DNA from: Nostoc sp. LEGE 12450
Lineage (GTDB): Bacteria; Cyanobacteriota; Cyanobacteriia; Cyanobacteriales; Nostocaceae
Assembly: GCF_015206895.1 (NCBI RefSeq)
Contig: NZ_JADEXU010000006.1
Coordinates: forward strand, 35,400-99,399
Direction: 5' to 3'
DNA: 64,000 bases
A program made the position numbers and the translations under genes. Below, piece after piece: positions 3,105-40,515 of this stretch (the first letter of the stretch is position 1; each line of letters opens with the position of its first letter). The notes beneath the pieces are model-generated. The model saw nothing but the letters and a program-made list of their open reading frames with translations. It had not been told where the DNA came from and searched no databases.

Positions 3105-3216
3105 AATGTCCATTTCCACTTGTAGTACGTTGATTGGGTCTATATAATACAATACCCTAAGCTTGACAGTCGTAAGGCTTTATGTACCAGTTTGTAGAAA
3201 TGCTGAGGTAGCCTTC

Positions 3217-3328
3217 CAATACGGTTCGGTTAAAGGGGAAAGGTTTTGAATACATCCTTTACCCTTTATCCGCAATCCCTTTCCCCAGAGCACAAGAAAA
3301 GTGAAAAATGCTTATCCGAACCGTATTG
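3217..3328. mobile_element. 112-bp MITE with 10-bp target-site duplication (copy 1)
   Basis: Terminal inverted repeats CAATACGGTTCGG / CCGAACCGTATTG bound a 112-bp non-coding element. It is flanked by a perfect 10-bp direct repeat GGTAGCCTTC (3207-3216 and 3329-3338), as expected from insertion of a transposable element. A second copy with the same termini and similar interior lies at 49879-49989. A duplication of about 10 bp is compatible with an IS4-like parent, which is inference. Confidence 0.85.
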
Positions 3329-3391
3329 GGTAGCCTTCTACTTTTGCACAAGAAGATTCCCAACTTATTATTAGGACTCACGCAAAACTAT

Positions 3392-3428
3392 ACGGTGTAG
3401 AGGCAATTCATGTATTACCCCTACACCG
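3392..3428. repeat. Dispersed palindrome (ACGGTGTAG...CTACACCGT)
   Basis: This is an inverted repeat with the internal words GGCAATTCATG and ACCCC. It belongs to the same loose family as the palindrome at 59301-59332. Confidence 0.6.
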
Positions 3429-3503
3429 TGTGTCTATTTCCTATCAAAGAATGATTAATAAAAACTTGAAACGACGTATTTATTATGCGTTATCAAGAAC
3501 CCT

Positions 3504-3534
3504 TGTAGAGATGTAGCACTGCTACGTCTCTACA
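3504..3534. terminator. Palindrome / likely ftsH terminator
   Basis: TGTAGAGATGTAGCA and TGCTACGTCTCTACA pair at 14 of 15 positions, 18 bases beyond the ftsH stop. It is both a dispersed Nostoc palindrome and a plausible transcription terminator for ftsH on the minus strand. Confidence 0.55.
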
Positions 3535-3552
3535 TTATTTTTCATCAGATGT

Positions 3553-5481
3553 CTAATGAGGTACAGCTAATTGTGCATCAGCTACTTGGGCATTATCAGC
3601 AACGATTTGGCGGAATGAATCGCCTTCAATTGTTTCTTCTTCTATTAACAAATCTACTAAACGTTCCAAAACTATGCGGTTTTCTTCCAACAGTTCTTTT
3701 GCCTTGATATAAGAGTTGTTGACAATTTCACGCACCTGTGAATCAATCTTGGCGGCAATTTCTTCAGAATAGTCTGATTTATTCATCCAGTCGCGTCCTA
3801 AAAATACCTCTCCACTCTGATTTTCCAGAGACAATGGGCCTAATTCTGACATCCCGAAGCGTGTCACCATCTGCCGCGCCATCCCTGTCACCTGTTGCAA
3901 GTCATTGCTTGCACCTGTGGTAACTTCTGGCTTACCAAAAACGATTTCCTCGGCGGCGCGACCACCCAAAGTAGCAGTAATCCGGGATTTGAGTTGGGAA
4001 CGGGAAACTAACCCCTGTTCTTCGTTTGGAGTAAACCAAGTTAATCCCAGTGCTTGCCCCCGTGGAATTAATGTAACTTTCTGCACAGGGTCATGGTCTT
4101 TGAGCAATGTGCCTACTAAAGCGTGTCCAACTTCATGATAAGCAATCAAGCGTTTGCTCTTGCTGTCTACTAAAGCAGTACCTTCCATACCTGCAACAAC
4201 TCTATCCACAGCAGCATCAATTTCTAAAATGGTGACAGCTTCTTTGCGTCTCCGAGCAGTGAGAATAGCAGCTTCGTTGAGTAAATTGGCTAAGTCTGCG
4301 CCAGTAAATCCAGGAGTGCGGCGAGCGATCGCTTCTAATGATACGCTAGGGTCAATTTTCTTATTCCGCGCGTGGACTTTCAAAATTTCCAGTCGCCCTT
4401 TAAGATCGGGTGCATCCACCATCACTTGTCTGTCAAAGCGTCCTGGTCTGAGCAGCGCTGCATCTAAGACATCTGGGCGGTTAGTGGCAGCAATAATAAT
4501 AATACCTGTGTTACCTTCAAAACCATCCATTTCGGTGAGGAGTTGGTTGAGGGTTTGTTCGCGCTCATCGTTACCGCCACCGATACCAGCACCCCGTTGT
4601 CTACCTACTGCGTCAATTTCATCGATAAATATTAGACATGGGGCATTTTCTTTAGCTTTCTTGAAGAGGTCGCGCACGCGAGATGCACCCACACCAACGA
4701 ACATTTCCACGAATTCCGAACCGGAAATACTGAAAAATGGTACACCTGCTTCGCCTGCGATCGCTTTTGCTAGTAAAGTTTTACCAGTACCAGGAGGGCC
4801 AATTAACAGCACTCCTTTGGGAATCCGCGCACCTACAGCCGTAAATCTTTCTGGTTGTTTCAGGAAAGTAACAACTTCTTCAAGGTCTTCTTTAGCTTCT
4901 TCAACCCCGGCGACATCTTCAAATTTCACTCCGGTTTTGGCTTCCATTTGGAAACGCGCTTTGGATTTGCCGAAATTCATCGCTTGGCTAGAAGCATTTG
5001 TAGAGCGTCGGAGGAACAATAGCATTAAAGCTACCAGTGGCAAAATCCACATAAGATTAATCAACAGCCCAACAGCAGCTCGACTGTTAGCAGAGGAAAC
5101 CTCGCCAAATTCAACATTCTTATCTTTGAGTATGTTAATTAACTCTGTGTTTTGCGCTAAAAGTCTCACCTGTTGCGGTGGCGTATTTTCCTTTTGCCCT
5201 TTGAGATAAACTCTGGCTAGCTGTTCGGTTTCGTCAAGCTCTACTTTTTGGACTTCTCCCGCCTTCGCTTTCTTGAGCAAATCACCATAGTTTAGAGAGG
5301 TACTAGAGCTACTAGAGGTACTCTCTGCTTTTTGTGCCAAGACGGGGGTACTCCCGAAAATTCCTGGTAACATAATCAAGCTAGCTGCGATGCCTACGGC
5401 GGGCAACGCTTTCGCACCAACCCAAGCAACGCGCTTTGATGACTGCCTTTTTACCAATGCTTTTTTTCCCAAATTTGTCAT
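3553..5481 (-). CDS. ftsH: ATP-dependent zinc metalloprotease FtsH
   Basis: This is a membrane-anchored AAA protease that degrades damaged membrane proteins; in cyanobacteria the FtsH family includes the enzymes that turn over photosystem II D1. The 642-aa product has a hydrophobic N-terminal segment ([18 protein letters not shown]), a lumenal or periplasmic domain, and a second membrane helix ([19 protein letters not shown]). The AAA module follows with Walker A GPPGTGKT and Walker [12 protein letters not shown], then the SRH region ([19 protein letters not shown]) and the zinc motif HEVGH. Length and order are standard. Cyanobacteria have about four FtsH paralogs, and I cannot tell which one this is. 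Confidence 0.97.
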
Positions 5482-15854: not shown

Positions 15855-16457
15855 ATGGTAATCAACCTACAAAAAGGGCAACGTATCTCACTTTCTAAAG
15901 AAGCACCTGGGCTTACAAAGCTGATGTGTGGGCTAGGGTGGGATATAGCAAAACGTTCTGGTGGCAGTTTTTTTGGGGCTTTCGGTAATACTCAAAACTG
16001 CGACTTAGATGCTTCTGTAATCTGTTTAGATAAAAATGACAAAATAACAGATATCGGTAACGTTCTTTACTTTGGAAATTTATTGCACAAATCAGGAGCT
16101 ATTACCCATTTGGGTGATAATCTTACAGGTGCAGGTACAGGTGATGACGAGCAAATTATTGTAGATTTAGCTCGACTACCAAAAGAAATTGTCAAACTAG
16201 TTTTTACGGTTAATATTTACGACTGTATTGCTCGTAAGCAAGAATTTGCACAGGTACAAAATGCCTTTGTGCGTTTAGTCAATACATCTAACAATCAAGA
16301 ACTGGCCAAATATCATTTATCTGGTTCTGAATACAAAGGAATGACCGGGATGATCATGGCTGAAATTTACAATCACAATAACGAGTGGAAAATGGCAGCT
16401 ATTGGTAACGGCATTAATGTTAATGGTTTGCAGGGACTTATGAAAGTCTATGCTTAA
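15855..16457 (+). CDS. TerD-family protein 1
   Basis: This is a 200-aa TerD-domain protein, a Ca2+-binding beta-sandwich found in tellurite/stress-response ter operons. Diagnostic stretches are LQKGQRISLSKEAPGLTKL, CDLDASVICLDKNDKI, the Ca-loop GAGTGDDEQIIVDL and VKLVFTVNIYDC. Compared with the next two TerDs it has an insertion after GLGWDIA (RSGGSFFGAFGNTQN) and more divergent sequence. It is the first of three tandem TerD genes on the plus strand, 70 bases before the second, likely co-transcribed. Confidence 0.9.
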   Translation: MVINLQKGQRISLSKEAPGLTKLMCGLGWDIAKRSGGSFFGAFGNTQNCDLDASVICLDKNDKITDIGNVLYFGNLLHKSGAITHLGDNLTGAGTGDDEQIIVDLARLPKEIVKLVFTVNIYDCIARKQEFAQVQNAFVRLVNTSNNQELAKYHLSGSEYKGMTGMIMAEIYNHNNEWKMAAIGNGINVNGLQGLMKVYA

Positions 16458-16527
16458 CTACTTATTGAGTTACCCAACTCAATAACAACTCTGCACAAAA
16501 TTCGTTTTGAAAAAATAGGGAGTAATT

Positions 16528-17100
16528 ATGTCAATAAACCTCAGCAAAGGCGAAAGAATCAATCTTTCAAAAGAAGCACCAAGCTTAAAAAATGCTGGTA
16601 TTGGTTTAGGATGGGATATCAACGTTACAGATACAGGTACAGTTTTTGACCTTGATGCTTCTATCTTTATGTTAGGTGCTAACGGAAAAATTCCTAATGA
16701 AAAATACTTTGTTTTCTATAACAACTCCCAATCACCAGATGGTTCTGTAAAACATGAAGGAGACAGCAGAACTGGAGAAGGGCTTGGAGACGATGAAACA
16801 ATTCAAATTGATTTGGGCAAAGTTGATGCTTCGGTTCAAGAAATAGTTTTTGTCGTTACCATTCATGAAGCAGATCAAAGAAAGCAAAATTTTGGACAAG
16901 TCAGAAACTCATTTATCAGAATTTATGACAACGCCACAGAAAAACAAATTGCTAAGTATGAATTAGATGAAGATGCTTCCGCAGAAACTGCAATTGAATT
17001 TGGTAAGCTTTATCGAAAAGATGGGGAATGGAGATTCCAAGCTGTCGGTGCTGGTTATAAATCAGGGCTACAAAGTTTTGTAGAACGATATGCTGCTTAG
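16528..17100 (+). CDS. terD: TerD-family protein 2
   Basis: This is a canonical 190-aa TerD protein: INLSKGERINLSKEAPSLKNAGIGLGWD at the N-terminus, FDLDASIFMLGANGKI, the calcium loop EGLGDDETIQIDL, and the C-terminal EWRFQAVGAGYKSGLQSFVERY. It is close to the TerD half of the following gene, which suggests a local duplication. A GGGAGTAATT ribosome-binding site precedes the ATG. A terminator-like hairpin follows at 17125-17161, so only part of transcription may reach the third gene. TerD proteins are linked to resistance to tellurite, phage and membrane stress; the direct function is unresolved. Confidence 0.93.
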   Translation: MSINLSKGERINLSKEAPSLKNAGIGLGWDINVTDTGTVFDLDASIFMLGANGKIPNEKYFVFYNNSQSPDGSVKHEGDSRTGEGLGDDETIQIDLGKVDASVQEIVFVVTIHEADQRKQNFGQVRNSFIRIYDNATEKQIAKYELDEDASAETAIEFGKLYRKDGEWRFQAVGAGYKSGLQSFVERYAA

Positions 17101-17124
17101 TAGCTATCTCAAAAAGTAATAAGT

Positions 17125-17161
17125 AAAAAGGGGGTAAGAGTCATGAATACCTCCTTTTTTT
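17125..17161 (+). terminator. Terminator between TerD 2 and the TerD-vWA gene
   Basis: AAAAAGGGGGTA pairs with TACCTCCTTTTT (one G-T pair) and a T7 run follows. It may attenuate read-through into the TerD-vWA gene. Confidence 0.75.
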
Positions 17162-17206
17162 GTATAAGTTAATTCACAAAAACTAAATTTATAGGATGTA
17201 TATGAA

Positions 17207-18625
17207 ATGGAAATTGAATTAAGCAAAGGTGGTAGATTTAATCTTTCTAAAGAAGCTCCTAATTTAAAGAAAGTAGCTATTGGCTTGGGTTGGCAAACAA
17301 ATCAAGCTGGACAAAATTATGATATTGATGCTTCCGTATTTATGTTAGACGCGAATGCCAAAATACCCGATGAGAAATACTTTATTTTCTACAATAACCT
17401 GCAATCACTAGATGGTTCTTTAAAACACTCAGGAGATAATAGAACTGGAGAAGGTAACGGAGATGACGAGACAATTTATGTTGATTTGGAAAAAGTAAAT
17501 CCAGCTATTCAGGAAATAGTTTTTGTTGTCACTATTCATGAAGGGCAAGAAAAAAATCAAAATTTTAGCCAAATAAAAAATGCCTTTATCAAGATTTACA
17601 ATCACGAAAGTAAAAACTCTCTGGCTCGGTATAACTTAAGAGAGGCTTTTTCTCAAGAGACATCTTTGGAATTTGGACGTTTGTATAAAAAGGACAATGA
17701 ATGGAGATTTCAAGCAGTAGGAGAAGGCTATAGTTCTGGGTTACAAAGTTTTGTAGATAAATATATTGGAGAAACTAAACAAGAAAAAAGTCAAGAATAT
17801 CCGATCGTACAAAGTGAGAAAAAAACTTATAAAAATCAAGAAAATATAATATTAGATAAAAAGCTTGAACGTGAAGCACCACATATTTTTAATCTTGCTA
17901 AAAAAGCAGATATATCACTTCAGAAAGTAAATCTTACCAATCATAAAGCTAAGGTTGTGCTTTGCCTTGATATTTCTGGTTCAATGAGTTCGCTCTATTG
18001 CACAGGTAAAATCCAGAGGTTCGCTGAAAAAATCCTTGCTTTAGGATGTCGTTTTGATGAAAATGCCTCTATTGATATATTTCTATTCGGAGTTGAAACC
18101 CATAATGTAGGTGCAATGACTATTGAAAATTTTAAAAGCTTTATTCCCAATCTATTAAAACAGTATCCACTCGAAGGTGGTACTTACTATGGTAAAGCTA
18201 TCAATATGATTAGAAAAGTTTATTTTCCTATATCTAAAAAAGAGAGCCAAAAAAATACTACGCCCTTAAGTCAACCAGTTTATATCATGTTTGTTACAGA
18301 TGGAGCAACATCTGACGAGCCAGAAACAGAACAGTATCTTAAAGAGTCTTCTTATGAACCTATTTTTTGGCAATTTATGGCTATTGGCAAATCACGTAAG
18401 GATGCTAAGGGTAAAGGCATTTTAGGCTGGTTATCTCAAGCAAAGACAAGTGATTTTACCTTCTTAGAACGATTGGATGAAATGAGCGATCGCTATGTTG
18501 ATAATTCAGATTTCTTTAGTTTAGAAGATCCAGAAACTATAGCAGATCAAGAACTTTATGATTTACTGATGAATGAATATCCTAACTGGCTAAAACTAGC
18601 TAAAACAAAGAATTTATTACAATAA
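17207..18625 (+). CDS. TerD-vWA fusion (TerF-like)
   Basis: The 472-aa product fuses an N-terminal TerD domain (1-190, with DIDASVFMLDANAKIPDEKYF and the Ca-loop EGNGDDETIYVDL) to a von Willebrand factor A domain (about 225-450), joined by a Lys/Glu-rich linker. The vWA MIDAS residues are visible: VVLCLDISGSMSS, the Thr loop EGGTYYGKA and the Asp in FVTDGATSDE. This architecture is that of TerF in plasmid ter operons. The vWA part probably binds partner proteins in a metal-dependent way. The TerD half is nearly the same as the preceding gene. Transport and phosphorylation partners (TerC, TerY) are not in the window. Confidence 0.9.
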   Translation: MEIELSKGGRFNLSKEAPNLKKVAIGLGWQTNQAGQNYDIDASVFMLDANAKIPDEKYFIFYNNLQSLDGSLKHSGDNRTGEGNGDDETIYVDLEKVNPAIQEIVFVVTIHEGQEKNQNFSQIKNAFIKIYNHESKNSLARYNLREAFSQETSLEFGRLYKKDNEWRFQAVGEGYSSGLQSFVDKYIGETKQEKSQEYPIVQSEKKTYKNQENIILDKKLEREAPHIFNLAKKADISLQKVNLTNHKAKVVLCLDISGSMSSLYCTGKIQRFAEKILALGCRFDENASIDIFLFGVETHNVGAMTIENFKSFIPNLLKQYPLEGGTYYGKAINMIRKVYFPISKKESQKNTTPLSQPVYIMFVTDGATSDEPETEQYLKESSYEPIFWQFMAIGKSRKDAKGKGILGWLSQAKTSDFTFLERLDEMSDRYVDNSDFFSLEDPETIADQELYDLLMNEYPNWLKLAKTKNLLQ

Positions 18626-22008: not shown

Positions 22009-22237
22009 GAAGCTAAAAGGTTCAACGATGAAGCTCAAAGGTTCAACGATGAAGCTCAAAGGTTCAACGATGAAGCTCAAAGGTTCAACGGTGAAGCTAA
22101 AAGGTTCAACGATGGAGCTAAAAGGTTCAACGGTGAAGCTCAAAGGTTCAACGATGGAGCTAAAAGGTTCAACGATGAAGCTCAAAGGTTCAACGGCGAA
22201 GCTCAAAGGTTCAACGGCGAAGCTCAAAGGTTCAAAG
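22009..22237. repeat. 21-bp tandem repeat array, about 11 units
   Basis: The unit AAAGGTTCAACGATGAAGCTC repeats about 11 times with exact 21-bp spacing (GGTTCAACG at 22019, 22040, 22061 and so on to 22229). Units differ at a few fixed positions (GATGAAG, GGTGAAG, GATGGAG, GGCGAAG). It starts 68 bases after the dehydrogenase stop and ends 63 bases before the PiT permease ATG. Because 21 is divisible by three, both strands read as heptapeptide-repeat ORFs, which I do not regard as genes. Confidence 0.95.
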
Positions 22238-22299
22238 TTCACCCTTAAAAACTCAAGTTTCATCCTCATTTCTCTCACTTTCCTCTTGTCCCTAACAAC

Positions 22300-23559
22300 A
22301 TGCTTATTACCCTACTTTTCGTCGCTCTACTGGCTTTCTACGTCGCCTGGAATCTCGGAGCAAACGATGTCGCTAACGCGATGGGAACCTCTGTAGGTTC
22401 CAAAGCTGTCACCCTCAAACAAGCGATAATTATCGCTGGGGTATTAGAGTTTACGGGTGCTGTGTTGTTTGGACATGAGGTAACGGAAACTCTCGCAACG
22501 AAAATTGCTAATCCCGCCTTATTCGCAGCTACACCCCAAATATTAGTTACTGGGATGGTAACGGTACTAATTTCCTGTGGTGTGTGGTTGCAAATTGCCA
22601 CATCACGCGGTTTACCTGTATCCTCTTCTCATGCCGTTGTTGGTGCGATCGCAGGATTTAGTTGGGTAGCTTTAGGAGTAGGTGCAATTGATTGGGCATC
22701 AATTGGCTTAATTAGCATTGGCTGGGTTTTAACGCCGTTAATTAGTGGTGCGATCGCTGCTTTATTTTATAGTCAAATCAAGCACTGGATTTTAGATCAA
22801 CCCAATCAAGTAGTCCAGTTACAAGAATGGATTCCCTGGTTGAGTACTGCGCTGCTAGGTGTATTCGGCGTGATTGTATTACCATCGCTGACTGAACCGC
22901 TAACCAATTTTGTAATTGAGCAAGTTGGTTTTACAATCCCTTCTCATGACATCCCGCTTTTAACGGGTGCAGTAGCAGCTGTTGGACTCACAATCATTAG
23001 TTGGCGACAATTGGGAGATAAGAGAGACAAGGGAGAAATACTTCCAAATCCTGTAGAAAGATTATTCGCCCGATTCCAACTACTAAGTGCTTGCTTTGTC
23101 GCCTTTGCTCACGGTTCTAATGATGTGGGAAATGCGATCGCTCCTTTAGCTGCGATCGTTTACATCAATCGCACTGGTAGCGTACCTACTGATGGTATAA
23201 CTATCCCGCTTTGGATTTTAATCCTTGGTGGTGCTGGTATTGTTGGTGGTTTAGCTGTCTGGGGAAAAAAAGTCATTGCCACCATTGGCGAAAACATCAT
23301 TGCCTTGCAACCTAGTAGTGGATTTTGTGCTGAACTGGCTACTGCTACCACCATCCTCATCGCTTCTCGGCTAGGTTTACCAGTCTCCACATCCCACGCT
23401 CTCGTCGGCGGTGTAGTTGGTATTGGACTAGTGCAAAATATTAAGTCGATTAAGTTCCAAACACTAAAAGGTATTGCTGCTGCATGGCTAATTACAATCC
23501 CTGTGAGTGCTTTACTTAGCGCTGCTATTTTTAGCATCGCTCGAATTTTATTCCGCTAA
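22300..23559 (+). CDS. pit: Inorganic phosphate (PiT family) permease
   Basis: This 419-aa PiT-family transporter has the duplicated PiT signature, GANDVANAMGTSVGSKAVTLKQA near residue 22 and HGSNDVGNAIAPLAAI near residue 268, with about ten hydrophobic segments and paired SSSHAVVGAI / STSHALVGGV loops. PiT proteins import phosphate as metal-phosphate with protons or sodium. No PhoU-like gene is adjacent. The promoter must lie in or beyond the 21-bp tandem repeat directly upstream, so repeat number might influence expression (inference). Confidence 0.92.
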   Translation: MLITLLFVALLAFYVAWNLGANDVANAMGTSVGSKAVTLKQAIIIAGVLEFTGAVLFGHEVTETLATKIANPALFAATPQILVTGMVTVLISCGVWLQIATSRGLPVSSSHAVVGAIAGFSWVALGVGAIDWASIGLISIGWVLTPLISGAIAALFYSQIKHWILDQPNQVVQLQEWIPWLSTALLGVFGVIVLPSLTEPLTNFVIEQVGFTIPSHDIPLLTGAVAAVGLTIISWRQLGDKRDKGEILPNPVERLFARFQLLSACFVAFAHGSNDVGNAIAPLAAIVYINRTGSVPTDGITIPLWILILGGAGIVGGLAVWGKKVIATIGENIIALQPSSGFCAELATATTILIASRLGLPVSTSHALVGGVVGIGLVQNIKSIKFQTLKGIAAAWLITIPVSALLSAAIFSIARILFR

Positions 23560-32950: not shown

Positions 32951-33982
32951 GTGCAAGACACCGACTCCATCAACGACCTTGCTGCTGCTTTACTACAGCC
33001 AGCAGATATCAGCTTTGAACTGCCCGATCCAGAAGATGAACAGATTCTAGAATCAGATTTTCAACAGCAACTCGAAATAGCTTGGCAGGTATGCGATCGC
33101 TTCGATTTGCAAACTGAAATCTGGCGGGGACGAATTTTACGGGCTATCCGCGACAGAGAGAAAGTGGGCGGTGATGGGCGCGGTACTGGCTTTCTGCGAT
33201 GGCTAAAAGAGCGGGAAATCAGCAAAAGTCAAGCATACTCCTGGATTCAGCTGGCCAATAGTGCCGATACTCTGATTGAAGACGGTAAACTCGACCCCAG
33301 TTCTGTGAATAACTTCAGTAAACGGGCATTTGTTGAAACCTCCAAAGCATCGCCAGAAGTGCAACAGATGGTGAGTGAAGCCGCCCAAAAAGGCGATCGC
33401 ATCACCAGGCGCGAAGTGCGCCAACTCAGCGATGAATGGACAGCCATGTCCTCAGATTTATTACCTGAATCAGTCAAGGAAAAAGCCGCAGATAACACCC
33501 TTCCGCCGCGCTACATCGCCCCATTGGTGAAGGAAATGGAAAAACTGCCAGAATCGCACCAAAAGTTTATCCAGAAAGAAATTGCTGCCAATCCTGATGT
33601 GGATACCCTAAAACAGGTAACAAGCGAAGCGCGTAACTTGGCCAAATATCTCAAAGGGGCGGCTCAAGTTCAGGCGCTAACGCAGGAAAATGTTGATATT
33701 GAAACAGCCTTAGAAGAAGCGCAGAGAGTCGGCTGTTTGAGCATTGCTGCTGATTTGGTCAATCAAGCATCGCAGATTGAACAAACGATCGCTAAACTCT
33801 ATATGACTTGGAAACGAATCGGCAATTTGGCAGATAGATTATATGTAGATACTGGCGCAAGTACACCCAACTTGCGATCGCTCCTCACTTGTTTGGAACC
33901 TCTGGGTGGTGAAATTATGGAATTGCAACTAAGTGGTGCGACTGAACACACTGTTCGTTTGCAAATTCAGGAGACGAGTTAG
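32951..33982 (+). CDS. Hypothetical protein with ParB/DUF3102-like features
   Basis: The 343-aa product starts at GTG 32951. Residues about 55-110 (WRGRILRAIRDREKVGGDGRGTGFLRWLKEREISKSQAYSWIQLAN) look like a DNA-binding segment of the kind found in phage/plasmid DUF3102 proteins. The middle (RAFVETSKASPEVQQMVSEAAQKGDRITRREVRQLSDEW) recalls the KorB/ParB helical region. The C-terminal part is helical with no known motif. No parA partner is nearby. I suspect a chromosomal DNA-binding protein of cyanobacteria; the role is unknown. Confidence 0.6.
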   Translation: MQDTDSINDLAAALLQPADISFELPDPEDEQILESDFQQQLEIAWQVCDRFDLQTEIWRGRILRAIRDREKVGGDGRGTGFLRWLKEREISKSQAYSWIQLANSADTLIEDGKLDPSSVNNFSKRAFVETSKASPEVQQMVSEAAQKGDRITRREVRQLSDEWTAMSSDLLPESVKEKAADNTLPPRYIAPLVKEMEKLPESHQKFIQKEIAANPDVDTLKQVTSEARNLAKYLKGAAQVQALTQENVDIETALEEAQRVGCLSIAADLVNQASQIEQTIAKLYMTWKRIGNLADRLYVDTGASTPNLRSLLTCLEPLGGEIMELQLSGATEHTVRLQIQETS

Positions 33983-33998
33983 GGAATAGACAATAGGC

Positions 33999-34038
33999 TA
34001 ACTTTGCAGTAATTGCGATCGTAATTACTGCAAAGTTA
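33999..34038. terminator. Perfect 16-bp hairpin with a HIP1-like loop
   Basis: TAACTTTGCAGTAATT (33999-34014) and its exact complement (34023-34038) enclose the loop GCGATCGT. It lies between the convergent stops at 33982 and 34085, suiting a bidirectional terminator, although no T-run adjoins it. Confidence 0.7.
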
Positions 34039-34084: not shown

Positions 34085-36487
34085 CTAACGAGCAGCGCAA
34101 GATGTAGCGGTGAGTGACGAGTTATGGGGCAACGCAGTGGGTACTTGAGCAACCAAAACCACATTACCATTGGCATCCATTACCCATCCTTGGGCTTCTA
34201 CAATTTGAGTAGGTTCATTGGCAGAATTAACTTTCTGTGATTTTTCTTCTGTGTTTTGCTGCGCCTGAAGAACTGCTCTTTTCTGAATACCAGCAGCACT
34301 ATTTTTACTCTCTGGCTCTAGTGTGATCCAATCTGCCAGCACCGCATCATCAGCTATCAATGGCTGCGTGGGATCGGCTACTAGTCCACCACGCCCAGTA
34401 GCAATAAATGAACTGCTTCCTATTTTTGCACCAGAATTACAACCAGCAGCAATTTGCTGGGAAGCATCAACCAGATTTACGGGCAATTCCACTAATCCTT
34501 TGCTGGGGTCAGCATCTGGTGAGTTGATTTGTACAGTGCCATTTAATGTAGGGTCTTGCTGAGAAAATGCGGTGATGTCACTTGTTCGGAGGTTATTCGG
34601 GTTGATTGAGCCTGTTGGATCAAGCCTTTCTACGTCTGCACGGGTGCGTGGCACAAACCCAAAGATGTTTTTAGCGGTGATTGTGATTTTACCACCAGAG
34701 CCAGAGAAGGCGTTGGCAGTGATATCGTTATTTCCAAAGGGAGTGGCAACGAGGAAGCCATTAGGTGCTTTGATGGTGATATTACCACCAGTTTTATCAC
34801 CCCCTGCATTAGTGGATATTTGACTATTGCGGCGCATCAGTAATAAGTCCCGCACCTGTAGTGTAATATTACCGCCCTTACCTAACTCACTATTAGATGT
34901 GAGGTTTCCTTTGTTTTCCAGAAGAATGGAGCGAGCATTCACATTTAATTCACCTGCTGAACCCAGATTGCTTGTATTCCCTATGTAAGTTCCAAATGTT
35001 AGAATTTGACTGCTTACATTTACTTCAGCTTTGTCCCGAACAATTAATTGTCCTGTGCTAATTGTTAATTTTCCGGCATCTCCGGAACCATTAGTAGAAG
35101 CAAATAAGCCACTGGAAAAACCATTTGTTGTAGTTCCCATTAACTCTACAGACTTGGAGGCGTTGACCGTCAAATTTCCTCCTGATCCTGTGGCTATTAT
35201 AAATTCTGAGTTTTTCAATGTTCCACTAGAATCTGTTGATACCCGCCCGCCGTTTTGAATAAGCAATCTCCCAGTGTTGATTGTTAAGTCACCCGCTTTG
35301 CCAGCAGCACCGGTTGAACTAAACAATACACTAGGTCGATCAAAAGTAGTATTTGGTATAGAAAAGCTACCAATTACCTCTACGGATTCGGAGGCGTTGA
35401 CAATCAAATTTCCCCCATAACCTTCACCTATAGTAGAAGTAAATACTTGTGCGCCATTCTGAACAACTAATTTTCTGGTGTTAATCGTTAAGTCTCCGCC
35501 TTTTCCCGCACCCGTAGTCTGAGTTGTTAAGCTTACAAGATTACCAATTAATTCCACTGTCCTACCCTGCACCTGGATATTTCCACCACTTTCGCCACTG
35601 GTAGCTACCTGAGATGGAAACTCTTCATGGTCAACAGTTCGCCGGATAAGTTGAATATTCTGAAAATTCTGAACACCTTCATATCCTAAACTCCAGCCTT
35701 GGTTTGTTTGATTTAGACTCACCAGACTATTGCCAGCAACACTACCTAACTCAATTCGTCCAGATTGTGCTGTTAAATTTCCGCCATCCAGTGTTATGTC
35801 ACCGCCTACAAGTGCTAATGTTTTGCCTGGCTTTACCTGTATACCAACATTTCCATCAAGACTATTAGTTACGTTATCTGGACTCTTTGCTTGAGATTGA
35901 TTGCGGATAGAAGCCGCAACTGCTCCGAATTGTAAGCCGATGGGAACACTTACTGTTAGTAGGGGCGTAGTTTGGCTATTTGTAGTACTAAACTTAGTAC
36001 CATCAGCAAAGTTCAGACTACTTGCTGTACTCGCCACGAATGAACCACCGATGTTTAAAGAAGCATTAGGGCCAAAAACAATCCCATTGGGATTAATTAG
36101 AAACAGGTTGGCTGTGCCGTTAGCTTTCAGAATGCCATCTATATTAGAGATAGACTTACCTGTCACTCGACTGATTATGTTTTGAATATTTGTCCCGTTG
36201 TTAAAATGAACTCTGCTGTTAGTGAGTACAGAAAACTGTTCAAAGCTGTGGAACAGGTTGGTACCGCGAATTGCTCCACCATCGATTTGGTCAATAGAAT
36301 TTCCATCAATATCTAACTGGGGTGTAACAACTGAACTTTCAGACTCTAGAGTATCATCCTTTTGAATTTGGGCTAAAGCACAACTTCCACATAATAAAAG
36401 TGTCCCAGCAATTGCTAAACCACTGGCTAGGACTAACTTATAATACCAAGCGGCTGGTCTTTGATGTCTCACAGAATTTGCACTCAA
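34085..36487 (-). CDS. Two-partner-secretion exoprotein, filamentous haemagglutinin N-terminal type (copy 1)
   Basis: The 800-aa secreted protein has a signal peptide (LVLASGLAIAGTLLLCGSCALAQ) and a TpsA secretion domain with GGAIRGTNLFHSFEQFSV, NIISRVTGKSISNIDGILKANG and FLINPNGIVFGPNASLNIGGSF (the NPNGI element). Beta-helix repeats follow (GKGGDLTINTRKLVVQNGAQV type, recurring about every 60-90 aa), and it ends with GWVMDANGNVVLVAQVP and a terminal Cys (TSCAAR). TpsA proteins cross the outer membrane through a TpsB/ShlB pore, which is not in the window. It is a close paralog of the gene at 37530-39977. A peptide gene lies immediately upstream on the same strand. Confidence 0.93.
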   Translation of the reverse strand: MSANSVRHQRPAAWYYKLVLASGLAIAGTLLLCGSCALAQIQKDDTLESESSVVTPQLDIDGNSIDQIDGGAIRGTNLFHSFEQFSVLTNSRVHFNNGTNIQNIISRVTGKSISNIDGILKANGTANLFLINPNGIVFGPNASLNIGGSFVASTASSLNFADGTKFSTTNSQTTPLLTVSVPIGLQFGAVAASIRNQSQAKSPDNVTNSLDGNVGIQVKPGKTLALVGGDITLDGGNLTAQSGRIELGSVAGNSLVSLNQTNQGWSLGYEGVQNFQNIQLIRRTVDHEEFPSQVATSGESGGNIQVQGRTVELIGNLVSLTTQTTGAGKGGDLTINTRKLVVQNGAQVFTSTIGEGYGGNLIVNASESVEVIGSFSIPNTTFDRPSVLFSSTGAAGKAGDLTINTGRLLIQNGGRVSTDSSGTLKNSEFIIATGSGGNLTVNASKSVELMGTTTNGFSSGLFASTNGSGDAGKLTISTGQLIVRDKAEVNVSSQILTFGTYIGNTSNLGSAGELNVNARSILLENKGNLTSNSELGKGGNITLQVRDLLLMRRNSQISTNAGGDKTGGNITIKAPNGFLVATPFGNNDITANAFSGSGGKITITAKNIFGFVPRTRADVERLDPTGSINPNNLRTSDITAFSQQDPTLNGTVQINSPDADPSKGLVELPVNLVDASQQIAAGCNSGAKIGSSSFIATGRGGLVADPTQPLIADDAVLADWITLEPESKNSAAGIQKRAVLQAQQNTEEKSQKVNSANEPTQIVEAQGWVMDANGNVVLVAQVPTALPHNSSLTATSCAAR

Positions 36488-36815
36488 AAAAAGTAATTTA
36501 GTGAAATTTTATTGCCAATAATCCAAGAATGATGACAAATATTCAGTTAATAATGTTGGGTTTTCTAATACCTAAAATTCATTATGCGGATTATTTTTTT
36601 TAGAATAAAACTATTTTATTTTGCTCATTTTTGATTTGAAATGATAGTATTGCCAACTTCACAAGTGGCGACAAACTTTTTGATTGAAATCAATGGGTTA
36701 ATGACATACCTAAATATTAAGATATAATTGTTAGGATAAATCGATTAAATTTATTTTCAATTTTTTTAAAAAGTATGGCACTTCCTTAAGTTGACAATAC
36801 TATTAAAGCTAATAA
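36488..36815. other. Gap between peptide gene 1 and exoprotein gene 1
   Basis: These 328 AT-rich bases hold no ORF. The 35 bases next to the exoprotein start (TTGCACTCAAAAAAAGTAAT) resemble those before the second exoprotein (TTGCACCCAAAAAATAAAAG), part of the duplicated unit. Confidence 0.5.
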
Positions 36816-37118
36816 TTAACCACAAATCATACCTTGATTAGTGATAATACAACCCTTAAGTGCAATTTTATTATGTGGTATTGCCACTGCAAAATTCTGA
36901 ACTCTCTGTTTGTCAACAATATGACTATTTTGGATTTTATCTAGGTTGACAGTACAATGAACTTCAAGGATATTCTCTCCTGATATACCATATTTTTCTA
37001 ACACATTATTTAAGTTAGAGTTCTTTATAATTTCGCGCATTTCCTGCTGAATCTCGTCTTGTATCTGCTGTAATATTTGAGCATCTATGACTGTTGGCTG
37101 TACTGTTTGAGATTCCAT
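36816..37118 (-). CDS. Small leader-like peptide, candidate RiPP-type precursor (copy 1)
   Basis: The 100-aa product starts at ATG 37118 behind a strong AAGGAGAG site (the ORF track's upstream start has none). The N-terminal half, ILQQIQDEIQQEMREIIKNS then LNNVLEKYGISGENILEV, is a helix followed by a beta strand and matches the peptide at 40141-40401. The C-terminal tail (KIALKGCIITNQGMICG) differs and ends with a Cys-Gly. A conserved leader with a variable tail is the layout of RiPP precursors such as the nitrile-hydratase-leader type, but no modifying enzyme is seen. The exoprotein gene follows 328 bases downstream on the same strand. Confidence 0.6.
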   Translation of the reverse strand: MESQTVQPTVIDAQILQQIQDEIQQEMREIIKNSNLNNVLEKYGISGENILEVHCTVNLDKIQNSHIVDKQRVQNFAVAIPHNKIALKGCIITNQGMICG

Positions 37119-37529
37119 GAATTTTGCTCTCCTTGCAGACTGGTAGATGTGTAAACCTATTTTGCGGTGTACTAAATTAACGTGACTTAGATTAGTACAG
37201 TTTGGCGACGAATGAATCAAGGATATAGAGTCTAGAGTGGCACGACAGCATTAGGTTTCTAACGCTCTTGCGAACTCCCATGATTATGACTTCAGCTTGG
37301 CTAGTTATAATTACGCATTGTGTAATAAAACTTCATATATTTCTGCTGGATTTCCTTAAAGCATTCATGAATCTGGCTACCAACCTGACAAAGAGGCTAT
37401 ACCTTCTCTACGAGACCCTACGCGAACGGTGAGCTACACCAACGCACCACACATAATTTGAGTAGAGAGAGCGATGTCTACGACGGGCTACGCCAGCGCA
37501 CCAACAAAGATTTACAAGAATCTCAAATT
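37119..37529. other. Upstream region of peptide gene 1
   Basis: No gene is supported. The stretch 37295-37372 (AATAAAACTTCATATATTTCTGC) aligns with 40439-40515 upstream of the second peptide gene, marking a shared promoter or leader. The part near 37400-37505 holds dispersed repeats (CTACGAGACCCTACGCGAACGG, GCGATGTCTACGACGGGCTACGCC). Confidence 0.55.
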
Positions 37530-39977
37530 TTAATTACCAGCGCAAGATGTAGCGATGAGTGAAGAATTATGAGGCGACGCAGTGGGTACTTGAGCAACCA
37601 AAACCACGTTCCCATTGGCATCCACTACCCATCCTTGAGCTTCCACAATTTGAGTAGGTTCATTGACAGAATTAACCTTCTGTGAGTTTTCTTCTGTGTT
37701 TCTCTGCTTGTCAACAACCACTCTCTTCTGGATACCCTCAGCACGATTCTGGCTCTCTGGAGAGAGTGCGATCCAATCTGCTAGCACCGCATCATCGGCT
37801 ATCAATGGCTCCGTAGGATTGGGCGCTATTCCTCCACGCCCAGTTGTAATAAATGAACTTCTGGCTATTTTTCCACCAGAATTACAACCAGCAACAATTT
37901 GTTGGGAAGCATCAACCAAATTTACAGGCAACTCCACTAATCCTTGACTAGGATCAACATCTGGTGAGTTGATTCGTACCGTGCCATTTAATGAAGGGTT
38001 TTGCTGAGAAAACGCCGTGATGTCACTTGTTCGCAGGTTATTCGGATTGATTTCTTCTCGATCGAGTTTTTCTACATCTGCACGAGTGCGCGGTACAAAT
38101 CCAAAAATGTTCTTAGCGGTGATTGTGATTTTACCACCAGAGTCAGAGAAGGCATTGGCAGTGATATCGTTATTTCCCAAGGGAGTAGCGACGATAAAAC
38201 CATTAGGTGCATTGATGATGATATTACCGCCATCTCCAACAAGCCCTGTCGTACCGGCGTTAGTGGTTATTTGACTTTCGCGGCGCATCAATAATAAATT
38301 CTGCACCTGTAGGGTAATATTCCCGCCTTTACCTGAATCACTATTAGATGTGAGTTTTCCTCTGTTGTCCAGAAGTATGGAGCGAGCGGTTATATTCAAA
38401 TTGCCTGCTTTACCTAGATTATTCGGATCTCCGATATAGATTACATCTTTTCGAGCTTGGCTGTTCACAGTTATTGCAGCCCCATCCTTGATAATCAATT
38501 GCCCTGTAGTTAGGGTCAAGTTTCCGCCATCTCCAGGCCCTTGAGTCCCAGAAAACAAGCTACTGAGCTTAGAACCATTTGGTGAAGTTCCAATTAGTTC
38601 TACCGACTCGGAAGCGTTCACCGTCAAGTTTCCTGCATTTCCTGTAGCTGGTGTAAGTTGGTTAGGGATAAACCTGTATATACCCTCAGAGCTTGTTGAT
38701 ATTCTTGCTCCTCCTTCGATACGCAATTTTCCAGTATTAATTGTGATGTTGCCAGCGTTTTTATCGCCAGAAGTTGCACTAAATAATCCACTGGATATTA
38801 AATCACTACCATCTCGAAATAGAGGGATGTTAGTGCCGCTAATTAGTTCCACGGAATCTGAAGCGTTTATGGTCAATTGCCCCTGCAATTGGGCTCCACT
38901 TTTGACCACCAACTTCTTAGTATTGACATTGATGTTTCCAGAGTTTGCGTTGGAGAAACTCTGAGTAAACAGTTGCGAATCTTGTTCAATTACTACAGAA
39001 TCTGATGCGTTCACTGTCAAATTCCCTCCTGATTGCACTTCAAAGGGATTAACTAGAATTAGGAAACTGCCAGCTACCCGCACAAGCTTGCCTTGCAGCT
39101 GGATATTGCTGCCACTCTCTCCATGAGTATCTACGGTAGATCGAATTTTATTTAACTTGATTATTTCGATATTCTGGAAATTTTGAATACCTTCATATCC
39201 AAATGTCCAACCTTGGTTTGTCGGACTTAAACTGACCAGACTATTACCAGCGACGCTTCCTAACTCAACTCTTCCGTCTTTTGCAGTTATATTTCCCCCC
39301 TCTAACGTTATATCACCGCCTATAAGTGCCAAAGTTTTGCCTTGCTGCACCTGTAGACCAACACCTTGCCTAAAGATATTAACTGCGCCATCTGGTTTGG
39401 CTTGGGATTGATTACGGATGGGAGCCGCAGTTGCTCCAAATTGTAAGCCAATAGGAACGCTTAGTGTCAGTAGAGGTGTAGTTTGAGGAGATGTAGCACT
39501 AAACTTTGTACCATCAGCAAAGTTCAAGCTACTCGCCGTACTTGCTAGAAATGAACCACCAATATTTAAAGAAGCATTGGGCCCAAAAATAATGCCGTTA
39601 GGGTTAATCAGAAAGAGGTTAGCTGTGCCGTTAGCTTTCAGAATGCCATCTATCTTAGAAATCGAATTACCCGTCACCCGACTGATAATGTTCTGAATAT
39701 CTATTGCATTGTTAAAATAGGCTGTCCTTTCCGCAGAGACAGAAAACTGTTCAAAGCTGTGAAACAAGTTTGTTCCACGAACTGCCCCACCATCAATCTG
39801 GTCTATAAGCTGACCATCGATTAGCTTTGGTGTAATGATTGAACTTTCAGATCCAAGTGTGCCATCTTTTTGTATTTGGGCTAAGGCAAAACTCTCAAAG
39901 AAAGTGAGTACTCCAGCAATTGCTAATGTACTCACTATCCCTAACTCCCAGTACCAACTACTTCGGTATCGAGACAT
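37530..39977 (-). CDS. Two-partner-secretion exoprotein, filamentous haemagglutinin N-terminal type (copy 2)
   Basis: The 815-aa secreted paralog of 34085-36487 has a signal peptide (LGIVSTLAIAGVLTFFESFALAQ), a TpsA domain (GGAVRGTNLFHSFEQFSV, NPNGIIFGPNASLNIGGSFLAS), beta-helix repeats (AGNLTVNASESVELIGTS) and the shared C-terminal block GWVVDANGNVVLVAQVP...SLIATSCAGN. The two copies agree most at both ends and diverge in the central repeats, as expected when the exposed passenger evolves. The second peptide gene lies 163 bases upstream. Likely surface adhesion or cell-cell contact; no function is proven. Confidence 0.93.
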   Translation of the reverse strand: MSRYRSSWYWELGIVSTLAIAGVLTFFESFALAQIQKDGTLGSESSIITPKLIDGQLIDQIDGGAVRGTNLFHSFEQFSVSAERTAYFNNAIDIQNIISRVTGNSISKIDGILKANGTANLFLINPNGIIFGPNASLNIGGSFLASTASSLNFADGTKFSATSPQTTPLLTLSVPIGLQFGATAAPIRNQSQAKPDGAVNIFRQGVGLQVQQGKTLALIGGDITLEGGNITAKDGRVELGSVAGNSLVSLSPTNQGWTFGYEGIQNFQNIEIIKLNKIRSTVDTHGESGSNIQLQGKLVRVAGSFLILVNPFEVQSGGNLTVNASDSVVIEQDSQLFTQSFSNANSGNINVNTKKLVVKSGAQLQGQLTINASDSVELISGTNIPLFRDGSDLISSGLFSATSGDKNAGNITINTGKLRIEGGARISTSSEGIYRFIPNQLTPATGNAGNLTVNASESVELIGTSPNGSKLSSLFSGTQGPGDGGNLTLTTGQLIIKDGAAITVNSQARKDVIYIGDPNNLGKAGNLNITARSILLDNRGKLTSNSDSGKGGNITLQVQNLLLMRRESQITTNAGTTGLVGDGGNIIINAPNGFIVATPLGNNDITANAFSDSGGKITITAKNIFGFVPRTRADVEKLDREEINPNNLRTSDITAFSQQNPSLNGTVRINSPDVDPSQGLVELPVNLVDASQQIVAGCNSGGKIARSSFITTGRGGIAPNPTEPLIADDAVLADWIALSPESQNRAEGIQKRVVVDKQRNTEENSQKVNSVNEPTQIVEAQGWVVDANGNVVLVAQVPTASPHNSSLIATSCAGN

Positions 39978-40140
39978 GACAAACTTGCACCCAAAAAATA
40001 AAAGTATATTGAAATACTGCTCCTTGCTAATTAGGTCTGGTGATACTTGGGATTATCTTTGTTACCTAACTAGTAAATGCAAAGTTCAGCATTTTTATAC
40101 TTACTAGAATAAACTCTTTGCAGTGCGAAGACTAAATTAT

Positions 40141-40401
40141 TTAGCAGTTACAGCCAAGAGGGTTTCCAGTTGGGCAAGGGACACACCATGAGTCTTGCAC
40201 TACCAAAATTTCCTGCTCATCAACTGCATCACCAGATTTGATTTTATTTGGGTCAATATTGAACTGCCACTGAACTGTCAAAGCTCTAGCATCTGGTACC
40301 CCATACTTTTCAAGCACGCTGTATAAGCTAGCATTATTAACGCTTTCAAGCAGTTTCTGTTGAACTTCGTCTTTTAACTGCTGTAATGTTTCAGGGTTCA
40401 T
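40141..40401 (-). CDS. Small leader-like peptide with Cys-rich tail, candidate RiPP-type precursor (copy 2)
   Basis: The 86-aa product begins MNPETLQQLKDEVQQKLLESVNNASLYSVLEKYGVPDARALTVQWQF, closely like the first half of the 36816-37118 peptide (both have LQQ..DE.QQ and VLEKYG). The tail is wholly different, ending SWCVPCPTGNPLGCNC, with four Cys in 15 residues. It could be a core peptide, a metal site or a disulfide knot. It precedes exoprotein copy 2 on the same strand by 163 bases. I do not recognise a named family. Confidence 0.6.
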   Translation of the reverse strand: MNPETLQQLKDEVQQKLLESVNNASLYSVLEKYGVPDARALTVQWQFNIDPNKIKSGDAVDEQEILVVQDSWCVPCPTGNPLGCNC

Positions 40402-40438
40402 AACTGTTTTCGTTTCTTACAAGATGTGTCTAATTACA

Positions 40439-40515
40439 GCTTTACTAGTAAGAATTACGTTTAATGTTACAAAACTTCATGTTTTACTGCCGGATGTACT
40501 TCAAGCATTGATGAA
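40439..40515 (-). promoter_or_regulatory. Conserved upstream block of the peptide genes (copy 2)
   Basis: This block (plus-strand ACAAAACTTCATGTTTTACTGC, then TCAAGCATTGATGAAC) is clearly similar to 37295-37372 upstream of peptide gene 1. Conservation of non-coding DNA between duplicated cassettes suggests a promoter or regulatory element. Confidence 0.5.

Follow-up and report, generated by a model that had tools for sequence, protein, structure and literature searches.

TpsA exoproteins of two-partner secretion (TPS) systems are typically, but not universally, encoded next to a cognate TpsB. Some TPS operons carry an extra gene: the Burkholderia bcpAIOB operon contains BcpO, a small ORF required for TpsA function (PMC3415462), and HMW1C-type systems have a third partner, a glycosyltransferase (PMC3983070). 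In contact-dependent inhibition (CDI), tandem orphan cdiA-CT/cdiI cassettes located near TpsA genes recombine and thereby swap their variable ends (PMC5422565). Precursor peptides of the NHLP and Nif11 (N11P) families combine a long conserved leader with a short, hypervariable, Cys-rich C-terminus, have spread as paralogs in Nostoc, and are often encoded far from their enzymes (PMC2887384). At the locus described here, a peptide with a leader and a variable tail is encoded directly upstream of a TpsA gene. We found no report of such a pairing in the open-licence literature searched, and the gene pair is in none of the protein-family libraries or papers searched; its features suggest a diversified peptide that works with, or is shown by, a surface protein.

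The window, the whole 64,000-nt stretch of DNA that was analyzed, carries on the minus strand, in the order that an earlier note on this DNA had read, genes for peptide A (40141–40401; 86 amino acids), TpsA-1 (37530–39977; 815 amino acids), peptide B (36816–37118; 100 amino acids), and TpsA-2 (34085–36487; 800 amino acids from a TTG codon at 36487, with GTG at 36472 as an alternative start). The peptide A gene is supported by its ORF, its homologs, coding sequence under selection, and an AlphaFold2 (AF2) model. For peptide B, the mechanically called ORF (36816–37220, starting at TTG) is overlong; the conserved start is the ATG at 37118, which is preceded by a Shine-Dalgarno sequence, and the stop lies at 36816. 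The exoproteins are paralogs, as the note had claimed, with 65% identity over 826 columns; the TPS secretion domain PF05860 was recognized in TpsA-1 (E = 4e-65) and in TpsA-2 (E = 1.5e-65), and the two also match TIGR01901 (E values of 1e-26 and 3e-26). TpsA-1, the partner of peptide A, consists of a Sec signal, the TPS domain, and beta-helix-type repeats; TpsA-2 is the partner of peptide B. The peptides are likewise paralogous (39% identity over 54 amino acids, E = 6e-8), with a conserved N-terminal half common to both.

The noncoding DNA upstream of the two cassettes also aligns. Homology had been claimed for 40439–40515 and 37295–37372, and the aligned blocks proved slightly longer, with 40424–40515 and 37280–37371 (minus strand; repeat D11) matching without gaps at 74% identity over 92 nt. 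Each block holds a cassette-specific promoter-like element, TGAAGTTTTGTAACATTAAACGTAATTCTTACTAG at 40445–40479 in copy A and TGAAGTTTTATTACACAATGCGTAATTATAACTAG at 37301–37335 in copy B (both minus strand). These are the only two matches in the whole 8.8-Mb genome, both preceding the peptides, and a reversed control gave none. Within two mismatches, the element was found at 31 of 92 peptides compared with 2 of 92 downstream controls; it stands out chiefly in Nostoc plus a few relatives, and about half of the loci show no recognizable copy. Scans for sigma-70 promoters and terminators did not exceed shuffled sequences, and Rfam revealed no RNA family in the cassette. An inverted repeat at 33999–34038 (repeat I1; 20-nt arms, 95% complementary), located between TpsA-2 and a convergent gene (32951–33982), is likely a bidirectional terminator that closes the cassette.

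Given that both genes and their upstream DNA are paired, a two-gene unit was probably duplicated as a block, as the note had proposed; the duplication is nevertheless not unique to this genome, being present at the same site in many Nostoc relatives, and the copies have probably not evolved separately. The two window TpsAs fall into one group in the TPS-domain tree, whereas the peptide and promoter part of copy 2 groups with second copies of other Nostoc, from which we infer that the TpsA genes probably exchanged sequence after the duplication.

To what extent the peptide and TpsA belong together was assessed with 113 peptide homologs from approximately 85 Nostocales regions, drawn from Nostocaceae and from one other family in this order. 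A same-strand TpsA gene was present within 3 kb downstream of 105 of these peptides (median gap, 361 nt) and an opposite-strand one in no case, far above the chance expected with 14 TpsA genes in 8.8 Mb. The peptides occupied at least 18 unrelated flanking contexts and were linked to TpsA in 15 of them. Peptides lacking a TpsA neighbor, which the earlier note had named as evidence against the pairing, were confined to a small minority of five regions (L106, L107, L116, L129, and L160), two of which (L106 and L160) contain fused or remnant forms. A search of plasmids yielded one remnant fusion only.

The link is specific to one type of TpsA. Among the 14 TpsA genes of this genome, only the two in the window are linked to peptides. 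Linked TpsAs formed a single supported clade (98/98) in the TPS-domain tree, and 33 unlinked TpsAs from the same genomes all fell outside it. The 93 rows of the clade comprised 87 that were peptide linked, 4 at contig edges, and 2 apparent exceptions, both of which were accounted for: an IS200-like gene pair is inserted between peptide and TpsA in one (L137), and in the other (L187/L208) a 70–amino acid Cys-tailed ORF situated 285 nt upstream had been overlooked by the peptide model. Inspection by eye found no TpsB-like ORF beside the window cassette; one adjoins another TpsA of this genome (L092, also by eye). We also considered a special TpsA Cys pair that binds the tail and rejected it, because the other TpsAs of this genome share such a C-terminal Cys pair. 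This linkage, together with upstream homology that is widespread beyond the window, makes functional coupling of peptide and TpsA, for which the note had argued, close to certain.

The description of the peptide as leader-like was borne out. Peptide A has a leader of approximately residues 1–55, a linker, and the tail CVPCPTGNPLGCNC, and peptide B has the leader and the tail CIITNQGMICG. An AF2 model, of low confidence (pLDDT of 67), places helices at residues 3–23 and 26–32 and leaves the second half disordered. Tails turn over faster than leaders, with pairs at 40–60% leader identity showing a tail identity of approximately 0.33, and are rich in Cys (28%). Greedy dereplication gave 28 distinct tails, single-linkage classes being unusable because the Cys residues themselves merged classes, and 22 of the 28 had an even number of Cys residues (p = 0.002). 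The ratio dN/dS was <1 in 14 of 15 pairs, fusions included. Scanning 74 peptides against Pfam and NCBIfam returned only chance-level matches and no family. The window peptides contain no lipobox by eye, and the common leader form has no recognizable signal peptide. In its layout of helical leader, linker, and hypervariable tail, the peptide looks like a precursor.

Some tails are joined to export signals. In eight regions (L070, L076, L077, L080, L110, L124, L126, and L130), they are fused to a TpsA-type signal with a TPS stub, that of L130 matching PF05860 (E = 8e-9); in L108 the tail is joined to a PstS N-terminus (E = 2e-9), and in L144 and L146 it follows a signal that by eye resembles a twin-arginine (Tat) signal. 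In L076, the tail and 3' DNA of the leader-bearing and Sec-bearing forms are 95% identical over 76 nt. Some of these forms may be deletion remnants of tandem arrays. Such fusions, whether to Sec signals of the TpsA or PstS type or to Tat-like ones, imply that the tail is destined for the outside of the cytoplasm, and they make a cargo or ligand that is exported likelier than a modifier that stays in the cytoplasm.

We therefore prefer, at somewhat short of an even chance, a reading in which this two-gene cassette of Nostocales, with a precursor-like peptide gene followed by a TpsA of one particular clade, provides an exported, probably disulfide-bonded, diversifiable peptide that either works alongside its TpsA or is presented by it. 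A single promoter before the peptide gene most likely drives both genes. The tail, also that of the leader-only form, would be exported, oxidized, and active beyond the cytoplasm in concert with its TpsA; its likeliest role is that of a variable ligand or cargo physically borne by this long, beta-helical protein of the cell surface. Less probably, the leader-only form acts inside the cytoplasm. Tails would diversify by turnover and by recombination that attaches them to N-termini of other kinds (Tat-like, or Sec of the TpsA or PstS type), and the TpsB transporter and any peptide-processing factor would have to be encoded elsewhere. A more specific version, a surface-display system of a kind not described before, is tentative: TpsA would form a constant beta-helical stalk, paired with a disulfide-rich peptide that is encoded upstream and diversifies quickly. 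Recombination would move tails among the leader, Sec, and Tat-like forms, and the system would serve recognition or competition among filaments of cyanobacteria, partners in symbiosis, or rivals.

The peptide might instead be a strict RiPP precursor, its leader read by a maturase and a transporter encoded elsewhere and its tail becoming a modified product, with TpsA as carrier, receptor, or delivery partner. Its architecture and the remoteness of any enzymes would both suit NHLP/N11P precursors (PMC2887384), and Nif11-type precursors are present in the same genome. We nonetheless consider this unlikely, and membership in NHLP/Nif11 was rejected: neither TIGR03793 nor TIGR03798 was among the matches listed for the 74 scanned peptides, hhalign against the Nif11-type peptides of this genome gave a probability of 0.6%, and a Gly-Gly pattern preceded the tail in only 3 of 74 peptides. 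No modifying enzyme or peptidase-type ABC transporter or maturase recurred near the cassette in 26 regions with flanks of up to 10 kb, and lanthionine or oxazole chemistry cannot be general because 10 of the 28 distinct tails lack Ser and Thr.

A role as an accessory in TpsA biogenesis (chaperone, pilot, or maturation factor), like that of BcpO, would explain the strict neighborhood with one TpsA clade. It is improbable, given that a helper of a conserved TpsA clade would be expected to keep a conserved surface, whereas the tail is hypervariable, that the Sec, PstS, and Tat-like fusions retain the tail, often without the leader, and that a TpsA is accompanied by two or three peptide genes in some regions (L124, L136, and L146). 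A tail that serves the cell surface as a metal- or redox-active Cys cluster, rather than as a ligand, is suggested by CxC and CxxC patterns in many tails and by the Tat-like signals on some forms, which might reflect export in a folded state with a bound cofactor; the number of Cys residues (one to eight, only two in some tails) and their spacing vary without a fixed site, and we doubt this explanation strongly. A small variable gene adjoining TpsA also recalls CdiI or BcpI, but an immunity protein or antitoxin is very improbable, because TpsA C-termini are conserved across the clade, lack a variable toxin domain, and end in the region that cyanobacterial TpsAs share, the peptide gene lies upstream rather than downstream, and part of the peptide family bears export signals. 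Least probable is co-inheritance without functional coupling: Nostoc copies share one syntenic site and are not independent loci, but the pair is kept in at least 15 unrelated contexts, the promoter-like element and low dN/dS persist, and the opposite-strand arrangement is never seen.

Nostoc-type genomes encode many TpsA exoproteins, 14 in this one, and the strict link of one TpsA clade to hypervariable, precursor-like peptides provides a testable handle, in that the peptide predicts the cargo or presentation of its exoprotein. Such Cys-rich peptides are invisible to family-based mining because there is no model for the leader. Were the tail a ligand that is displayed or released, two-partner secretion would gain a modular role in peptide presentation, and cyanobacteria a new class of secreted Cys-rich peptides.

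Compared with NHLP/Nif11 precursors, the cassette peptides share the conserved leader, the short hypervariable Cys-rich C-terminus, and the paralogous spread in Nostoc; they differ in having no HMM or profile-profile match, Gly-Gly motif, or linked transporter or modifying enzyme, and in being linked to a TpsA exoprotein and occurring as export-signal fusions. In domain content (PF05860/TIGR01901) and architecture the large partner is an ordinary TpsA, but its constant neighbor is an upstream leader/tail peptide gene instead of an adjacent TpsB. BcpO and HMW1C are also extra genes tied to a TPS operon. BcpO, however, is encoded beside toxin/immunity genes and is a lipoprotein or a small protein of the cytoplasm, HMW1C is a glycosyltransferase, and both lack the combination of conserved leader and hypervariable Cys tail. 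Like the orphan CDI cassettes, these are tandem units whose variable ends recombine near TpsA genes; in CDI the variable part is the C-terminus of TpsA itself, whereas here TpsA is conserved and it is the tail of the small peptide that varies.

The minus-strand cassette comprises, in reading order, peptide A (40401-40141), TpsA-1 (39977-37530), peptide B (37118-36816) and TpsA-2 (36487-34085). Both TpsA proteins matched PF05860 and TIGR01901 strongly and were 65% identical to each other. Pairwise alignment of the two peptides gave 39% over 54 residues (E 6e-8), and the 92 nt upstream of each aligned at 74% in a repeat comparison of the window. The cassette is bounded on one side by an inverted repeat (33999-34038) with a convergent gene and on the other by an ABC permease gene. 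Elsewhere in the window, an ORF of repeated MKLKGST units (22028-22396), a tandem repeat with a 7-codon period, overlaps the start of a phosphate-permease-like gene, and three adjoining proteins (15855-18625) with similar N-termini had by eye a TerD/stress-type appearance, the last with a vWA-like region.

By single-sequence search, 76 of the 193 genomes sampled from the window's family had a peptide homologue, and profile searches added homologues from another family in that order; matches in a phylum-wide sample were confined to the window's own family. A scan of named genomes found the peptide in Nostoc, Desmonostoc, Mojavia, Calothrix, Amazonocrinis and others. In an alignment of 74 non-redundant members, a conserved NH2-terminal half, or leader (LQQLxDEIxxE...LEKYGI...L.....LDL), leads through a variable linker into a short tail rich in Cys. 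Cys makes up 28% of tail residues, with at least two in 73 of the 74 tails and one at the terminus in about half. Leader pairs at 40-60% identity had tails only about 33% identical, tail similarity being restricted to close orthologues. AlphaFold2 predicted helices at residues 3-23 and 26-32 (pLDDT about 80) and little order in the second half, in a model of mean pLDDT 67, and no member matched any Pfam or NCBIfam family above chance. Given that dN/dS was below 1 in 14 of 15 peptide pairs (mostly 0.15-0.6), these ORFs are real, quickly evolving genes.

Linkage was examined in about 85 regions fetched from relatives or the same genome (L-numbers) together with the window. A same-strand TPS protein lay downstream of 97 of 113 peptide-like ORFs within 1.5 kb and of 105 within 3 kb, counts that are slightly inflated because a few regions represent one genome twice; an opposite-strand TPS protein was near none of the 113. 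Nostoc copies share a single syntenic site and are therefore one observation repeated many times, and clustering by flanking genes separated at least 18 contexts, with the link present in 15. Among the eight peptides lacking a long TPS protein, two are at contig edges (L144, L148), one precedes a TPS gene that is broken (L122), and the other five are truly without one (L106, L107, L116, L129, L160). The window's genome encodes 14 TPS proteins, of which only the two in the window adjoin a peptide. In L124, L136 and L146, two to three peptide genes, some with signals and some without, precede one TpsA, as if tails were stacked before one carrier.

A maximum-likelihood tree built from 127 TPS domains grouped the linked TpsAs in one clade (support 98/98), which contained 87 linked members, 4 members at contig edges and 2 apparent exceptions; 33 unlinked TpsAs lay outside it. 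The clade count is biased because most members were retrieved through their peptide. One linked TpsA from another family (L163) was placed outside the main clade. In a peptide-blind sample (the window's own genome plus 30 loci from ten genomes), 9 of 10 clade TpsAs had a peptide by model; for the tenth (L187/L208), the model overlooked a 70-residue Cys-tailed ORF lying 285 nt upstream. In the other exception (L137), a gene pair judged transposon-like by eye separates peptide from TpsA; this IS200/IS605-like insertion (3126-4762) splits the cassette.

At many loci, some of them with other flanks, the promoter-like element TGAAGTTTTGTTACnnnnnGCGTAATTATTACTAG or a close variant lies 70-250 nt ahead of the peptide start. 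When up to 3 mismatches were allowed, the 8.8-Mb genome contained exactly two matches, one ahead of peptide A and one ahead of peptide B, and a reversed control contained none. Its position before peptides and absence from other TpsAs argue that transcription may begin ahead of the peptide and continue into TpsA.

In several relatives, additional short ORFs fuse an export signal to the tail, the leader being retained in some and missing from others. The signal is of the TpsA Sec type, sometimes accompanied by part of a TPS domain, in L070, L071, L076, L077/L080, L110, L124, L126 and L130 (the last scoring on PF05860), with remnants in L106 and L160; the PstS phosphate-binding-protein N-terminus in L108 (E 2e-9); and, by eye, an RR-containing Tat-like signal in L144 and L146. 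In L076, the fusion and the leader-type peptide next to it share 95% identity over 76 nt spanning the tail and the DNA that follows. One fusion, a TPS stub joined to a Cys tail and annotated as a hypothetical protein, is carried by pNsp_i (NZ_CP046712.1, 15635-16201; L216/L160), a mobilizable Nostoc sp. ATCC 53789 plasmid, with a tyrosine recombinase gene a few hundred bases away. Outside the window in the same genome, an ORF on contig C292 (L106, 3986-4405, minus strand) joins a TpsA-type signal region to the peptide second half and the short Cys tail LLAGCHFRCL; no TpsA is present in the surrounding 8 kb, and the ORF has the look of a remnant or of a separate exported peptide. Tails of one kind are joined to at least three unrelated export signals, the strongest evidence for a site of action outside the cytoplasm. 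Of 28 distinct tails, 22 have an even Cys count (p 0.002), which fits disulfides weakly, because tail classes are not fully independent.

Alongside the observed co-occurrence, clade specificity, common element, architecture and fusions, the simplest reading is a TpsA surface stalk that stays constant and a variable peptide produced together with it. Peptide and TpsA would be co-transcribed, the leader-only form would be exported, disulfides would form in the tail, and the peptide would associate with TpsA. The chief alternative is a genuine RiPP with enzymes encoded elsewhere; the lack of Gly-Gly in the peptide, of linked enzymes at the cassette and of Ser/Thr in 10 of 28 tails counts against known RiPP classes, not against an unknown class. 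Two tandem Nif11-type precursors with ELSEEELLSVSGG and the tails KLCHTEGCGGGHC and KLCHTAGCGGGHCYLS are present on contig C147 of the same genome (5447-6173; L212, L213).

No description of the peptide-TpsA pairing was found in the open literature, the search having covered papers available without subscription. The peptide resembles NHLP/N11P precursors (PMC2887384) in design, whereas its sequence, motif and neighbourhood differ; it resembles BcpO (PMC3415462) and CDI cassettes (PMC5422565) in neighbourhood but not in design.
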